Source: Betaproteobacteria bacterium (lineage in GTDB: Bacteria; Pseudomonadota; Gammaproteobacteria; Burkholderiales; Rhodocyclaceae). Taken from it: DNA of 64,000 nt. The notes beneath the pieces are model-generated. The model did no database searches. It was not told the origin of the DNA and saw only the letters and a list, made by a program, of their open reading frames with translations. Position 1 is the stretch's first letter; the number at the start of each line of letters is the position of its first letter. Made by a program: the position numbers and the translations under genes. Location: the NCBI GenBank assembly GCA_016194935.1, contig JACQAO010000050.1, forward strand, positions 1-64,000, in the 5' to 3' direction. Below are positions 38,265 through 45,891 of this stretch, piece after piece.

Positions 38265-38292
38265 TGGCGGAGAGGGCGGGATTCGAACCCGC
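38265..38292. repeat. Distal att repeat (28 bp of tRNA-Ser 3' end)
   Basis: This 28-base run (starting TGGCGGAGAGGGCGGG) is identical to 45864-45891, the 3' end of tRNA-Ser including CCA and the T arm. Flanks differ immediately on both sides. It is the far junction left by site-specific integration into the tRNA gene, not a tRNA itself. Confidence 0.95.
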
Positions 38293-38328
38293 ATGACACC
38301 GCATGGCTAGGGCATCTCCAAGGGTGCC

Positions 38329-38347
38329 TGCCTAAAAGCTGCCTAAA
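38329..38347. promoter_or_regulatory. Candidate integrase arm-binding sites
   Basis: Two direct copies of TGCCTAAA (38329-38336 and 38340-38347) are 11 bp apart, one helical turn, just inside the left junction. A related TGCCTAAG is at 45789-45796 and a further inverted variant (TGCCTTAA) near 45818-45826, inside the right junction. Short repeats near both att cores are what a tyrosine integrase arm domain would bind. This is inferred from sequence alone. Confidence 0.5.
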
Positions 38348-38399
38348 CCGGCCTATTTTTGCTTCGACCAGGCGCATTCGACAGCCCTGCCCCCGAAGG

Positions 38400-39053
38400 T
38401 CAGAAAAATAATTCCTTCAAGTGAAGCTGATCCCGTAGACCGTTCAACGGGTCTGACCGTCCATGCTCGTAATGCGCCTGGACGGCGCCTGAAAGCATAT
38501 CGGCAAATTGCAGGCTCAAGGTCTTCTTGCTGTCCTGCTGTAGGGTCGTCAGCGAAGTGGACACATTCTCCGTGTACCACAGATTAAGCTGAAGGTAGTC
38601 ATGCATGCTGTTTCCGCTCTGCACCTTGATGGATCGCGGATCGGGAACAAGAGTAACTGCCGGATGCTTCGCCATCTCATTGACCAGCAGCAACTTGATC
38701 ATGTAGTTGTAGAGCAGGTTTGGATCGGTCTGCATGTGTGCCAGAACCTTCCGCTTGTTCACGACGATGGCGTGATAGCTGATTTCGGGATGATGATGCT
38801 TGAGCTTCAACGCCTTCGAGACGAAGTCGGCGCGCGCCTTGTCGGACATGTCTGCCCACTTCTTTTCGCCAGCCGTGTTCCAACCGCGTTCGGTGTATAA
38901 GTCGCGAATAATTCGACCGGGAAGATGCTTCTTGTCCTCGGGTACAACCAGCGCGCCAATGGTGAGGTGGCGACTCGATCCCCCTTTGGTATACGGAAGT
39001 GAGAACGACCATCCGAGGTCGCCGCTTTCGTCAAGGTAAATGAGAATGCTCAA
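38400..39053 (-). CDS. DUF3800 protein, probable cargo of the element
   Basis: A 217-residue DUF3800 protein: the N-terminal IYLDESGDLGWSF carries the family DESGD motif, and QFADMLSGAVQAHYEHG near the end is the second conserved block. The fold is predicted to be RNase H-like, and genes of this family often sit in phages and genomic islands; its role is not established. The start is a TTG at 39053, chosen by family alignment because the frame has no nearby ATG. It is the only leftward gene of the element and lies next to the junction, a common place for cargo such as defence genes. Confidence 0.8.
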   Translation of the reverse strand: MSILIYLDESGDLGWSFSLPYTKGGSSRHLTIGALVVPEDKKHLPGRIIRDLYTERGWNTAGEKKWADMSDKARADFVSKALKLKHHHPEISYHAIVVNKRKVLAHMQTDPNLLYNYMIKLLLVNEMAKHPAVTLVPDPRSIKVQSGNSMHDYLQLNLWYTENVSTSLTTLQQDSKKTLSLQFADMLSGAVQAHYEHGRSDPLNGLRDQLHLKELFF

Positions 39054-39073
39054 AGTCCGTCGAGGCCGGCCAA

Positions 39074-39099
39074 GAAAAATGGCCTCACGAAGAGGCCAT
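39074..39099 (-). terminator. Terminator-like hairpin upstream of the DUF3800 gene
   Basis: Read leftwards, ATGGCCTC, a 5-base loop and GAGGCCAT are followed by TTTTTC. This is an intrinsic-terminator shape with 8-bp perfect arms (39092-39099 and 39079-39086). It ends about 20 bases before the DUF3800 TTG start, so it would block leftward readthrough into that gene, or act as an attenuator if the promoter lies further upstream. Confidence 0.6.
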
Positions 39100-43449: not shown

Positions 43450-44267
43450 ATCAGACCGGAATCGAAAAAACAAAGAGGGTAAAGGGTGGGGGCCGCAAGC
43501 TTCCAGGTGGTGCAACGTGTCAGGTATCGAGAGTGAAGAAGATGGCGATTAAGAAATCCGTGTCACCCCTCAAAAAGTTGCTTCAAGAGCTTCCGCAGTT
43601 CCATGGTGACCTCACCCGCTGGTCTTACTGCATGCAAGGTGCTTTCTCGGAGGAAATCGACGATGGCGCAGTAGCCCACCTGACAGCCGCCTTCGGCAGC
43701 TATCACCCGCAATGGCTGATCGACTCAAAGCCGTGGCGAAAAGTGCAAGGCGAAAGTTTCAAGATGCTGCGCCAGACACTGCGCCTGTCGATAACCCAGG
43801 CGGCGGCCTATCTCCGGGTCAAGCCGACAACAATCGCCCGCTGGGAAAACGAAAAATCAAGAACACCATTCGCCGCCCTGGAAGCCTTCCGCCTGCTGCT
43901 GGCGTCGGTTCACTTCAAGTGTTCGCATCGCATTTGGGACGGATGGTTTATTAGCGCCGAAGGCACCTGGGTATCGCCAAACGTCGGTAAGCTGGCCTTC
44001 AAGCCGTATGAGTTTGACTACCTGCCGCAACTGCACGCCGATAACTCTAAATTGCGTTTCGAAAATGACCGGCTCAGGGTTCAGATCGACGAAGCGAATG
44101 CCGAGAACACCAGACTTCGCAAACTTTTTCAAGAGCAAGGCGTCACCAAGGAACTGCGACGGATGCATGGCCGCATCGGCGAACTGATCGCTGGCACCGG
44201 CACCGCCGACGTAGTCGACTTTTCTGTAACAAAACCCGCAACCAAACCTCGGAGGAAAGCAGCATGA
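43446..44267 (+). CDS. Phage-type HTH DNA-binding protein (DUF3653-like)
   Basis: A 273-residue protein. The HTH covers about 110-160 ([35 protein letters not shown]), a Trp-rich [19 protein letters not shown] segment follows, and a coiled coil covers ~195-225 ([22 protein letters not shown]). This resembles DUF3653-type phage proteins, though the family call is tentative. The start at 43446 overlaps the replication gene; MAIKK at 43542 is an alternative start. It may regulate replication or be part of the initiation complex. Confidence 0.65.
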
Positions 44268-44452
44268 AAAAACGTGAATTCAAACTCAACATGAACTTGC
44301 CCGCCGACAAGATTGTCAGCATCAACATCCTGCGGCTGAAAAGGTACATTCGCACCCTCGATCCAAGCTACAAGCCGACTGCCAAGGACAGAGCGGTAAT
44401 GCAAAACAACTATCAACGGCTCGTGCGAGAACAGGCTGCGCGGCGCCGGTAA
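44264..44452 (+). CDS. Small basic hypothetical protein
   Basis: A 62-residue, strongly basic protein ([17 protein letters not shown] at the start, ending QAARRR). GGAGGAAAGC just before the ATG is a strong ribosome site, and it overlaps the upstream stop by four bases. It has no recognised family; its basicity and place before xis and int suggest a nucleic-acid binding role. Confidence 0.6.
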   Translation: MKKREFKLNMNLPADKIVSINILRLKRYIRTLDPSYKPTAKDRAVMQNNYQRLVREQAARRR

Positions 44453-44462
44453 GCAACCGAAA

Positions 44463-44747
44463 ATGATCCGCTACAAAACCATCCATCAGTTCGCCGCCGA
44501 GAGTGGCTATACTGAACACGCCATTCGCGGCAAGATACGCGATGGCGTGTGGATGGAAGGCCGTGTCTGGAAAAAAGCGCCGGACGGCCATGTTCTGATT
44601 GATATTGAGGGGTATCACCAATGGGTGGAAAACGGCAACGGACTGGCGTGCACACCATCTCAGATTCGTCAATCCAGATCGACTTCATCTACCAGGGCAT
44701 CCGTTGCCGCGAACGCCTCAAGCTCCAGCCCACCACCCCTAATCTGA
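44463..44747 (+). CDS. Excisionase-like DNA-binding protein
   Basis: A 94-residue protein whose first ~60 residues look like a small winged-HTH excisionase: IHQFAAESGYTEHAIRGKIRDGVW, then KKAPDGHVLIDIEGYHQWVE. It lies directly before the integrase gene and overlaps its start by 127 bp in another frame. The C-terminal 40 residues (Ser-rich) coincide with the integrase N-terminus in the other frame and look less constrained. Xis proteins bend att DNA to favour excision. Confidence 0.7.
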   Translation: MIRYKTIHQFAAESGYTEHAIRGKIRDGVWMEGRVWKKAPDGHVLIDIEGYHQWVENGNGLACTPSQIRQSRSTSSTRASVAANASSSSPPPLI

Positions 44748-45805
44748 AACGTGCAGAGCAGCATCGCGCCGCCATCCTCGACGCAATCGAGCGCGGCACT
44801 TTCGATTACACCGTCTCGTTTCCGAACTCACCGCGGCGCTTTCTGTTCGCCAAAAAACAGGGCGAAGGCTATCCCCTCTCCGACTACCTTGAAACCTGGC
44901 TGGAACAGCAGCGCGCACACCTCAAGAGCAGCACCTTCGACGACTACCGCAAGATCGTTTGCAACACCCTGATCCCCGCCTTCGGCAGCGTCTCTATCGC
45001 CGACCTCAAGCGCGCCACGATCCGCGACTGGTGCGAACAGCAGGAAGCCGCCAATAAGCGTCTGTCGAACGTGCAGAGCGTGCTGCGCAAGGCATTGCAG
45101 GATGCAGTCGACGATGAACTGATCGAAGTCAATCCGCTGTACGGCTGGAAATTCGCCCGCAAGGAAGCGCCGAAACCGGTCGACGATGTCGACCCCTTTG
45201 CCGCCGACGAACAAGCCGCCATACTCGATGCCTGCCGCGATCCGCAGCACCGCAACCTGTTCGCCTTCGCGTTCTGGACTGGCATGCGCACGTCTGAGTT
45301 GGCGGCGCTGGAGTGGGGCGACGTCGACTGGCGGCGCAAGATCGTGCGCGTCTCGCGCGCCAAGACGCAGGCGGCGGACGAACCGGAAGGAACAAAGACC
45401 AGGCGCGGCACACGCGACGTGAAGCTGCTCGCACCGGCCCTGGCGGCGCTGACCGCGCAAAAGCTGCACAGCTTTGTTGTCGGCGGCGCGGTGTTCCTCA
45501 ACCCGCGCACCGGCCAAGCCTGGGAAGGCGACCAGCCGATCCGGCACGGTGCCTGGGTGCCGGCGCTGCGCCTGGCCGGTGTCCGCTATCGTCGCCAGTA
45601 TCAGACCCGCCACACCTATGCCAGCATGATGCTGACAGCCGGTGAATCGCCGGTCTGGCTGGCGCAGCAAATGGGCCACAGCGATATGACAATGATCGCC
45701 CGAACATACGGACGCTGGATCAGCGATGCGCAGCCGGAAGCGGGAAACAAGGCGGTGGAATTGTTCGGAAAAAAAGCTGCCATAAAGCTGCCTAAGCTAG
45801 GCTAA
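44621..45805 (+). CDS. int: Tyrosine recombinase integrase
   Basis: A 394-residue phage-type integrase. An arm-binding DUF3596-like N-terminus (IQIDFIYQGIRCRERLKLQPT) is followed by a core-binding domain (~85-170) and the catalytic domain. The active-site residues are visible: Arg in GMRTSELAALEW, His-Arg in QYQTRHTYASMML, His in QQMGHSDMTMI and the Tyr nucleophile in ARTYGRWI. It is adjacent to the intact tRNA-Ser, as expected. Excision and integration would use the 28-bp repeat. Confidence 0.93.
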   Translation: MGGKRQRTGVHTISDSSIQIDFIYQGIRCRERLKLQPTTPNLKRAEQHRAAILDAIERGTFDYTVSFPNSPRRFLFAKKQGEGYPLSDYLETWLEQQRAHLKSSTFDDYRKIVCNTLIPAFGSVSIADLKRATIRDWCEQQEAANKRLSNVQSVLRKALQDAVDDELIEVNPLYGWKFARKEAPKPVDDVDPFAADEQAAILDACRDPQHRNLFAFAFWTGMRTSELAALEWGDVDWRRKIVRVSRAKTQAADEPEGTKTRRGTRDVKLLAPALAALTAQKLHSFVVGGAVFLNPRTGQAWEGDQPIRHGAWVPALRLAGVRYRRQYQTRHTYASMMLTAGESPVWLAQQMGHSDMTMIARTYGRWISDAQPEAGNKAVELFGKKAAIKLPKLG

Positions 45806-45863
45806 TTGTCGCCTATTTTAAGGCAGCATCGCTTTAGACAACTCAACAATATCAGTAGCTTAA

Positions 45864-45891
45864 TGGCGGAGAGGGCGGGATTCGAACCCGC
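45864..45891. repeat. Proximal att repeat (28 bp, within tRNA-Ser)
   Basis: Identical in all 28 positions to 38265-38292. It is the 3' end of the functional tRNA-Ser gene, which the element therefore leaves intact after integration. Confidence 0.95.

Follow-up and report, generated by a model that had tools for sequence, protein, structure and literature searches.

AICEs such as pSAM2 reside in tRNA genes and carry a rolling-circle Rep together with int and xis. P4-like satellites and PICIs are small, bear an integrase and have a slot for defence-type cargo. The TLC satellite phage of Vibrio cholerae has a gpA-type replicase and no capsid genes. For streptococci, rolling-circle-initiator relaxases have been put forward in 118 of 144 IMEs (PMC5704250). 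According to the same source, three plasmids are mobilised by ICEBs1 with Rep_1-type initiators taking part, and TcpA-type coupling proteins are used in the few cases of trans-mobilisation known for rolling-circle-initiator relaxases (PMC5704250). We have analyzed a 7.6-kb element that resembles the non-canonical streptococcal IMEs as they are described there: chromosomal, integrase-bearing, in some cases named after tRNA genes, and with an initiator, from one of several families, in the absence of a canonical relaxase (PMC5704250).

The element lies at positions 38265-45891 of the window (the whole stretch of 64,000 nucleotides that was analyzed) in Rhodocyclaceae contig JACQAO010000050.1, within a tRNA-Ser(GGA) gene. 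A preliminary description had placed it between exact 28-bp repeats of the tRNA 3' end, and indeed the two copies were identical at 28/28 positions, with the tRNA-Ser(GGA) on the minus strand. The chance of an exact 28-bp match within 9.5 kb was estimated at less than 1e-8, and the same 28 bp also bound a related element, L198, in a genome of the same genus. Two further genomes of this genus (G002 and G003) had a single exact copy of the 28-bp att and no element in the retrieved stretch. At the sequence level this shows a site polymorphism, the site being occupied in some genomes and empty in others. No joined-end (circle) junction of the 7.6-kb element was found in its own assembly. Its features are the following (coordinates in the window, strand, description):

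38265..38292, no strand: left att repeat, duplicating the 3' end of tRNA-Ser, 28/28 identical to 45864-45891
38400..39053, minus: DUF3800 cargo, candidate defence gene (PF12686 E 1.1e-10; phrog_9243 E 1.5e-68)
39325..39387, plus: 63-nt hairpin, one arm of which (TTATCCAC) resembles a DnaA box; proposed single-strand origin for second-strand synthesis (fold, covariation)
39548..39733, plus: 61-aa ORF that probably remains from the C-terminus of a Phd-type antitoxin (28 aa align to the L198 Phd antitoxin at 82% identity)
39740..40273, plus: RstR/CI-like HTH repressor (HTH_3 E 5.7e-10; phrog_8 E 5.8e-13; homologues in 16/16 loci)
40441..41154, plus: second HTH regulator, family c33, divergent here (alignment; c33 profile E 4.8e-13)
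41166..41447, plus: small protein, phrog_1273 (E 1.1e-14; homologue in L052)
41444..41665, plus: 73-aa protein kept upstream of gpA in near relatives (55-63% identity in L180, L020 and L199)
41677..43449, plus: gpA-type HUH rolling-circle replicase (Phage_GPA E 6.6e-79; phrog_91 E 1.1e-154)
43287..43315, plus: predicted gpA origin or nick region, CCCTTGGACTCGTGTCAATAACTGTGCGG, a nucleotide motif near the gpA 3' end
43446..44267, plus: XafT-like HTH protein with coiled coil (NF040522, VC1465 family; start perhaps 43542)
44264..44452, plus: conserved small ORF of 62 aa (56% identity in L198, 49% in L197)
44463..44747, plus: excisionase, xis (phrog_9668 E 1.5e-25; 91% identical in L198)
44621..45805, plus: tyrosine integrase (PF12167 Arm-DNA-bind_2, PF14659 Phage_int_SAM_3, PF00589 Phage_integrase; 92% identical in L198, same tRNA)
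45864..45891, no strand: att repeat within tRNA-Ser(GGA), 28/28 identical to 38265-38292
45864-45953, minus: tRNA-Ser(GGA) (tRNA call)

Gene clusters were taken from a codon-based ORF caller, which replaced a greedy one, and ten element proteins were scanned against Pfam, PHROGs and NCBIfam; the 62-aa ORF at 44264-44452 was not among them, and its homologue in L197 had no PHROGs match. Pfam and PHROGs matches recovered the integrase, the overlapping xis (the overlap is 127 bp) and the rolling-circle initiator that had been read from the letters alone. The claimed lack of structural, packaging and transfer genes also held, with no capsid, packaging or relaxase family matched by the ten proteins in the three collections. 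Instead of the two regulators counted before, there were three HTH regulators, at 39740-40273, 40441-41154 and 43446-44267. The element has its own integrase and is bounded by att repeats, as expected of an IME. The earlier proposal that it probably excises and replicates is supported, the replication being of the rolling-circle type. Besides, the DUF3800 gene on the minus strand (38400-39053), which had gone unmentioned, is also part of the element. It matches the PADLOC candidate PDC-M04A (E 9.8e-14), and in several relatives the same slot is occupied by toxin-antitoxin or SoFic genes. Within the 61-aa ORF, the DNA at 39589-39676 was 79.5% identical to L198.

The origin of replication of phage P2 is found inside its gene A. 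The gpA of the element scored 265.7 bits against Phage_GPA, over a cut-off of 31.4, and its catalytic motifs were intact, both the HUH (PHWHLL, residue 313) and the YxxxY (YLAKYI, residue 367). Across 86 gpA loci the predicted origin motif recurred near the gpA 3' end; it was met in each of the three frames and in one case lay outside the gene. DNA similarity between the element and four relatives stops at 43315-43321, that is, at this motif. An HUH initiator with its catalytic residues and a putative cognate origin would make the element a rolling-circle replicon. We found gpA relatives in 324 phage records, all with less than 60% identity to the gpA of the element, and in the gpA tree the element family was placed apart from P2-like gpA and near that of PM2-like prophages.

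The fold of the 63-nt hairpin had a z of -5.6 (core shuffled). In L198, L020, L238, L236, L237 and L185 the arms were identical and the inner stems differed yet paired; L180 showed the same pattern with an imperfect right arm, and the inner stem of L185 folded barely better than shuffles (z -0.9). The pattern was detected in 26 IMG/VR contigs, with microvirus-like contigs of 4.3-5.0 kb among the carriers, and was not found on plasmids pA12BJ1 and pA29BJ1. In the ABC-primosome, as outlined in PMC6127211, a DnaA-box hairpin on single-stranded DNA lets DnaA load DnaB, and priming starts; a single-strand origin matters for both maintenance and acquisition of ICEBs1 according to PMC4595007. The nucleotide-conserved gpA origin and the hairpin together suggest a complete rolling-circle apparatus.

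The same gene order was sought elsewhere, as had been advised, and 16 chromosomal loci with a common core were found, L198 being in the same tRNA-Ser. The RstR-like HTH and c33 were present in 16/16, and a small hydrophobic peptide in 15/16, missing solely from the 38265-45891 copy. The XafT-like gene was found in 13/16 loci and a tyrosine integrase in 15/16, and the replicase was gpA in 13 loci and Rep_1 in two. Direct repeats of at least 28 bp were found at 10/16 loci, nine of them in tRNA genes called by ARAGORN; relatives with long repeats were capsid-less and had 6.6-7.9 kb between the repeats. One locus, L237, is a decayed copy. The most informative comparison is with L198, from the same genus and the same tRNA, whose integrase is 92% and whose xis 91% identical, whereas its replicase is of the plasmid type, Rep_1; its DNA similarity to the 7.6-kb element is restricted to 38265-38377, 39589-39676 and 44184-45891. 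The core was also found on two circular plasmids with no integrase, pA12BJ1 of Janthinobacterium, where it includes the XafT-like gene and is accompanied by a Rep_1-like protein and TrfA, and pA29BJ1 of Polaromonas, with Rep_1, Mob_Pre and VapC. Judged from gene content, the core is modular: the replicase can be gpA or Rep_1, the recombinase a tyrosine or a serine enzyme or, as on both plasmids, missing, and these two and the cargo are swapped independently of each other. Since Rep_1 takes the place of gpA in L198 and the core is found on plasmids, gpA is to be seen as an exchangeable module and provides no evidence for a phage satellite.

All 12 aligned XafT-like members matched NF040522 at E <=0.01, although neither of the two scores given, 44.8 bits for this element and 52.5 bits, reaches the cut-off of 70. 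A class-wide XafT-like profile search found matches in 7 of 369 genomes, and the six besides the own genome gave partial alignments to the model with no more than 28-53 bits; in the two of those six stretches that were examined c33 had no match. Queries with the XafT-like protein and c33 found nothing in 50,697 phage records, and no relative was found in IMG/VR viral contigs with short patterns and tblastn, patterns that can miss distant relatives. Both queries do match circular plasmids. The predicted structure of c33 (mean pLDDT 67) was too weak for use. Regarding XafT-driven dif integration, the best dif-like score was not above 20 shuffles in 14 of 16 sequences, and this route was discarded; in the 7.6-kb element, whose repeats lie in a tRNA gene and which has an integrase, the best score was 15/21 against a shuffle maximum of 14, which is marginal, and pA12BJ1 gave likewise 15 against 14.

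The preliminary description had considered the element to be of a kind not recognised. Our literature searches on XafT or gpA satellites, rolling-circle integrative elements, pA12BJ1 and Antarctic plasmids, TLC genes and microvirus hairpins found no description of the family; the novelty is only partial, because the streptococcal IMEs with rolling-circle initiators, as presented in PMC5704250, are close in kind. An HUH initiator and an integrase without capsid or canonical relaxase are what defines a non-canonical IME; the element has this combination, and gpA would be the putative relaxase. The element differs from the streptococcal IMEs in being betaproteobacterial, in having gpA or Rep_1 rather than the Rep_trans, Rep_2, PHA00330 or Viral-Rep given in PMC5704250, and in that no coupling-protein family was matched by its ten proteins. 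The plasmids pA12BJ1 and pA29BJ1 share with it the RstR-like HTH, c33, the hydrophobic peptide (at the family level) and an HUH Rep, and pA12BJ1 also the XafT-like gene, but both are autonomous and integrase-free, with a Rep_1-type Rep plus TrfA (pA12BJ1) or a Mob_Pre relaxase (pA29BJ1). TLC and IMEX are similar in the missing capsid genes and perhaps in the XafT-like family, given the scores below the cut-off (the role of XafT is taken from PMC9765430); unlike them, the element has its own integrase at a tRNA gene and no convincing dif-like site. In contrast to AICEs, no FtsK/TraB-type transfer gene was matched in the element, and in contrast to P4-like satellites and PICIs no helper-hijacking, capsid-size or terminase family. 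The tmRNA-associated islands moved by jumbo phages have a tyrosine integrase, direct repeats, defence cargo and no transfer genes too, but their integration site differs and the available text of PMC12595487 names no replicase for them.

All this makes it reasonably probable, in our opinion, that the 7.6-kb element is an integrative rolling-circle replicon of Betaproteobacteria, plasmid-like and tRNA-resident, akin to the non-canonical streptococcal IMEs. The reading proposed before, a phage satellite that would excise on helper infection, replicate by gpA and travel in a capsid supplied by a P2-like, PM2-like, filamentous or microvirus helper, appears unlikely. It would account for the hundreds of phage relatives of gpA and the closeness of the family gpA to that of PM2-like prophages, for the match of the XafT-like gene to the family of a satellite-phage factor, for the phage families matched by xis, int and the repressor, for the hairpin shared with microvirus-like contigs and for the defence-like DUF3800 and SoFic cargo. 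Yet the XafT-like and c33 genes, without match in phage records or, by short patterns and tblastn, in IMG/VR, do match plasmids, gpA is replaced by Rep_1 in two loci, and at 7.6 kb the element is larger than the microvirus-like contigs (4.3-5.0 kb). The ten element proteins matched neither a capsid or terminase family nor any helper-capsid hijacking or packaging family of the kind that marks phage satellites (Pfam, PHROGs, NCBIfam). The search for helper phages in the same strains did not favour a satellite either. The own genome had no match to Zot or Phage_cap_P2. Zot was found in 0/9 XafT carriers and 59/386 others (Fisher p 0.37) or, with the carriers found by c33, in 1/12 (G157, two matches) and 58/383 (p 1.0), 59 of 395 family genomes overall, so that for a filamentous helper the distribution is uninformative, with no association either way. 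The PM2-type coat was present in 0/11 carriers and 1/40 others, and a PM2-like helper was discarded. A conjugative helper, as our preferred reading would have it, showed no association, a point against that reading: the VirD4-type coupling protein (PF02534) was not found in the own genome and was over the cut-off in 4/11 carriers and 9/40 non-carriers (Fisher p 0.44; the PF02534 and coat counts cover 51 genomes, with G417, which has only a c33 fragment, left out). No canonical relaxase family was matched by the ten element proteins, and among relatives only pA29BJ1 has one (Mob_Pre).

It is very improbable that the element arose by deletion from a complete prophage with gpA, whether P2-like or PM2-like, the outcome that the preliminary description had named as refuting it. 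Phage families are matched by its gpA, repressor, xis and int, but many genomes have relatives that share its core, are of similar size and lack a capsid, none of the searches made found a complete prophage with this core, and in the tree the family gpA falls outside the P2-like group. A P2-derived satellite or P2-like remnant was rejected on this last point too, P2 structural genes being missing from the element and Phage_cap_P2 from its genome. That this copy is an immobile relic of a family that does move seems improbable. The hydrophobic peptide is missing, there is a probable antitoxin remnant at 39548-39733, and L237 shows that decayed copies exist; against this, int, xis, gpA, the origin motif, the hairpin and both att copies are intact. 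Still, because the peptide is missing and c33 is divergent, the 38265-45891 copy could be partly impaired.

For the integrative replicon that we prefer, the following cycle may be proposed. Int and Xis would excise a 7.6-kb circle, leaving the tRNA intact. Then gpA, to judge from the conserved motif and the intact catalytic residues, would nick the plus strand near its own 3' end and start rolling-circle replication, and the DnaA-box-like hairpin, which precedes the repressor gene, would start second-strand synthesis on the displaced single-stranded circle, as covariation and the microvirus-like contigs suggest. The RstR-like repressor would hold the cycle off, with modulation by the second HTH and the XafT-like protein, and the left-end slot, annotated by homology, would bear stabilising or defence cargo. 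How new cells are reached is a guess: a helper would be borrowed, and the likeliest one is a conjugative apparatus for which the HUH replicase would serve as relaxase. We would prefer conjugative mobilisation over helper-phage packaging as the putative route. A bolder idea, quite unlikely as it stands, is that the family toggles between plasmid and chromosome: the regulatory core would stay constant while complete modules are traded around it, the breaks falling at the replication origin, and the second strand of its single-stranded circles would be started from the very hairpin signal that is also found in ssDNA microviruses. An ssDNA phage or a conjugative helper might then take the ssDNA circle out of the cell by way of the shared hairpin and the hydrophobic peptide, in which case these elements would hitchhike as ssDNA and not be dsDNA satellites.

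As of 2017, systematic searches for IMEs had been made in Firmicutes only (PMC5704250), and the element described here provides a defined minimal rolling-circle element in Proteobacteria. Two candidate cis-acting sites, the gpA origin and the DnaA-box-like hairpin, can be named, which makes second-strand synthesis and transfer directly testable. Within one genus, a near-identical integrase in the same tRNA gene goes with either gpA or a plasmid-type Rep, indicating that a phage-type replicase is not, by itself, the mark of a phage when it is found in a small island.

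The element at 38265-45891 is a real, bounded unit of 7,599 bp (start to start), with the following features.

38265-38292, left repeat, 28 bp, identical to the right repeat
45864-45891, right repeat, the 3' end of tRNA-Ser(GGA)
45864-45953, minus strand, tRNA-Ser(GGA) gene
First genes from the left, in order: DUF3800 gene (minus strand), 61-aa antitoxin remnant, RstR-like HTH repressor, second HTH gene (c33)
Continuing to the right, in order: two small genes, gpA (phage-type HUH replicase), XafT-like HTH protein, 62-aa ORF, xis, int

The preliminary description had proposed a bounded element at tRNA-Ser(GGA), and the identical repeats together with intact int, xis and gpA bear this out; it is not a prophage remnant. 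Both HUH-class motifs are present in gpA (PHWHLL at residue 313, YLAKYI at 367), and no structural, packaging or relaxase family matched the 10 element proteins scanned. A neighbouring long minus-strand ORF (36039-38294), which we read as a chemotaxis receptor gene, reaches into the left repeat if its first ATG is used; translation more probably begins near 38120.

We searched for relatives with three proteins. Matches to gpA were found in 13 of 101 genomes (the own genome and relatives), and a scan of genome contigs across 554 relatives kept the 80 best loci. The XafT-like protein and c33 matched in 9 and 12 of 395 family genomes, respectively. Combined, the searches gave 16 chromosomal loci with the core (L239, holding a c33 fragment only, was left out).

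Chromosomal loci with the core and their direct repeats
window, 28 bp
L198, 28 bp
L180, 46 bp
L020 (= L181), 47 bp
L199, weak, 19 bp
L042 (= L197), no long repeat found
L195, 47 bp
L196, 28 + 19 bp, one interruption
L200 + L236 (one genome, two contigs), long-repeat results do not extend across the contig break
L238, weak, 17 bp
L237 (decayed), 45 bp
L021, no long repeat found
L023, no long repeat found
L024, 47 bp
L028, 49 bp
L052, 53 bp

A tblastn recount on the element stretches found the RstR-like HTH and c33 at all 16 loci. The replicase was gpA in 13, the plasmid-type Rep_1 in two (L198 and L200) and missing in L237. The XafT-like gene was present in 13 of 16, being absent from L024, L237 and L238, the last with a serine resolvase in its slot. 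All loci had a tyrosine integrase except L199, with a serine recombinase, and a hydrophobic peptide of 41-49 aa followed c33 in 15 of the 16 (not in the window) and on two plasmids described below. Family-library scans covered part of the relatives' proteins; for the others, capsid genes are judged absent from the order of the genes, their homology clusters and the length of the element. Cargo in the left-end slot changes from member to member: the DUF3800 gene of the window is a PADLOC candidate (PDC-M04A), and others carry Phd/PIN, YoeB, ParE, SocA-like proteins or SoFic (L028, E 4e-104). Direct repeats of at least 28 bp bordered 10 of the 16 loci, nine of them inside tRNA genes called by ARAGORN (Ser, Met, Lys, Phe); the exception is L028, which stops just past the repeat and gave no tRNA call. 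Distances from repeat to repeat were 6,595-7,905 bp, and 3,694 bp in the decayed L237 (5886-9624, 3.7 kb), which has lost replicase and XafT-like gene and has a truncated integrase, keeping its att repeats.

The genus comprises four genomes. In the own genome the tRNA holds the gpA element; in G001 it holds L198, bounded by an identical 28-bp repeat. G002 and G003 have one exact repeat copy and no element in the 17- and 18-kb stretches examined. The sole match in the G002 stretch was a distant integrase (27.7% identity), 0.7 kb off and past a tRNA-His gene, that may possibly belong to another site or element; it lies at L213, 10163-10642, near tRNA-His and tRNA-Ser(GGA) genes. The int and xis of L198 are 92 and 91% identical to those of the window, but for replication it has a Rep_1 protein (PF01446, 34.8 bits, cut-off 33.2); this protein matched 151 plasmid records and 15 from small phages, e.g. 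Propionibacterium phage B5. The DNA of the two elements is similar only at the left end, across the antitoxin remnant and over 44184-45891. With relatives at other sites (L180, L199, L238, L020) the similarity falls chiefly within gpA and breaks off where the origin motif ends (43315-43321), some 130 bp before the gene end; the other matches were a hairpin (L180, L238, L020), 43857-43876 (L180) and 44095-44167 (L199). Similarity with L198 at the integration end, and with other-site relatives in gpA, shows that the modules for replication and for integration have had separate histories.

The origin motif is conserved at the DNA level around GTCAATAACTG near the gpA 3' end. At 86 gpA loci holding it (near-copies counted, 12 duplicate or short loci excluded, genes lacking the exact motif outside the count) it was in frame 0 at 77 of them, in frame 1 at seven and in frame 2 at two, and because its frame shifts between loci we consider it a DNA site, presumably where gpA nicks. 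It lies outside the gene in L047 and is a variant in L196. The origin of P2 is located within gene A.

We built a quick maximum-likelihood tree from 96 gpA proteins. Many of its deep branches are poorly supported; the window gpA grouped, at support 100, with L199, L180, L020 and L238. Among the family's 13 gpA four label changes were required, two forced by well-supported branches, so gpA may have joined the core repeatedly or been swapped. Several gpA adjacent to PM2-type coat genes fell near family members, P2-like gpA elsewhere; the coat label is backed by Pfam (P2_N, P2_C) for L029 only, and other rows were labelled through a shared gene cluster. Such gpA near corticovirus coat genes occur in Betaproteobacteria at L029, L038, L040, L044, L063 and L065; L029 comes from G011, a genome in the family to which the window genome also belongs. 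Small gpA-xis-int elements with a tmRNA gene directly before gpA (L067, L071, L075, L091, L093, L041, L047, L053), several in Nitrosomonas, have gene maps without visible capsid genes. Islands ordered int, HTH-position gene, HTH_17 protein (match established for L059 only) and gpA, with variable cargo, occur in Marinobacter, Sedimenticola, Methylotenera and others (L046, L059, L070, L031, L035, L036).

A second conserved site is the 63-nt hairpin at 39325-39387, with arms GTTATCCACGG and CGGTGGGTAAC; the arm shares 8 of 9 bases with the canonical DnaA box. The arms recur in L198, L020, L238, L236 and L185 (outside the family count, its hairpin adjoining a gpA fragment), with one base changed in L237 and an imperfect right arm in L180. 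The inner stem varies among relatives yet still pairs, the core-shuffle z being lowest in the window (-5.6) and highest in L185 (-0.9, not significant). Exact hairpins occupy seven distinct places in 3.10 Mb (against 0, 0 and 1 in three mononucleotide shuffles), all in or beside Rep-type elements, around which this sequence was gathered. In IMG/VR the arms pattern appeared in 26 contigs. Of these, 24 measure 4,345-4,996 bp and another, which has two copies, 7,968 bp; the last is a tailed-phage fragment (L244) in which the inner stem folds no more stably than its shuffles do (z 0.5). Judging by terminal repeats, 55-121 bp long, 20 of the 26 appear circular. Among three capsid candidates scanned, two hit phrog_514 (major head protein) and the third phrog_1642; one Rep hit phrog_942. 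From their size and family, we take these contigs to be Microviridae. In these microvirus-like contigs (L240-L265) the DnaA-box-like arms are fixed and the inner stem is free to change, still pairing, and the orientation relative to the longest genes is variable. The A-site of the ABC primosome is a DnaA-box hairpin on ssDNA (PMC6127211).

The data show the borders, the intact int, xis and gpA, the polymorphism of the site, the exchange of modules, the plasmid forms and the conserved cis sites. From these we infer that the element would excise, that gpA would nick at the motif near its own 3' end, that the resulting ssDNA circles would have their second strand primed from the hairpin, and that the RstR-like protein would act as repressor. 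As to transfer, the preliminary description had considered a phage satellite or a mobilizable element. The window gpA does match in 324 phage records, all below 60% identity, and in at least 599 IMG/VR stretches. The satellite claim is not supported: the XafT-like and c33 proteins are found on plasmids, and neither query matched in 50,697 phage records or in IMG/VR, where the short-pattern-seeded search can let distant relatives escape. The core is present on two circular plasmids. That of Janthinobacterium (pA12BJ1, 7,799 bp) has the RstR-like HTH, c33, the hydrophobic peptide, the XafT-like protein, TrfA and a Rep_1-like HUH protein (28 bits, under the cut-off of 33.2). That of Polaromonas (pA29BJ1, 6,346 bp), whose c33 match recurs in a 6,345-bp record labelled Flavobacterium, has the RstR-like HTH, c33, a 41-aa hydrophobic peptide, VapC, Rep_1 (53.2 bits) and, at 53.1 bits against a cut-off of 25.5, a Mob_Pre relaxase, without XafT-like gene or integrase. 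Because of this Mob_Pre relative, and because rolling-circle initiators are treated as relaxases in the literature (PMC5704250), our guess is mobilisation by conjugation, the HUH protein serving as relaxase; against it, no coupling protein matched in the own genome, nor were coupling proteins associated with carriers. Limited literature searches found no description of the element. We conclude that this is a betaproteobacterial integrative element of the rolling-circle type whose replicases are exchangeable.
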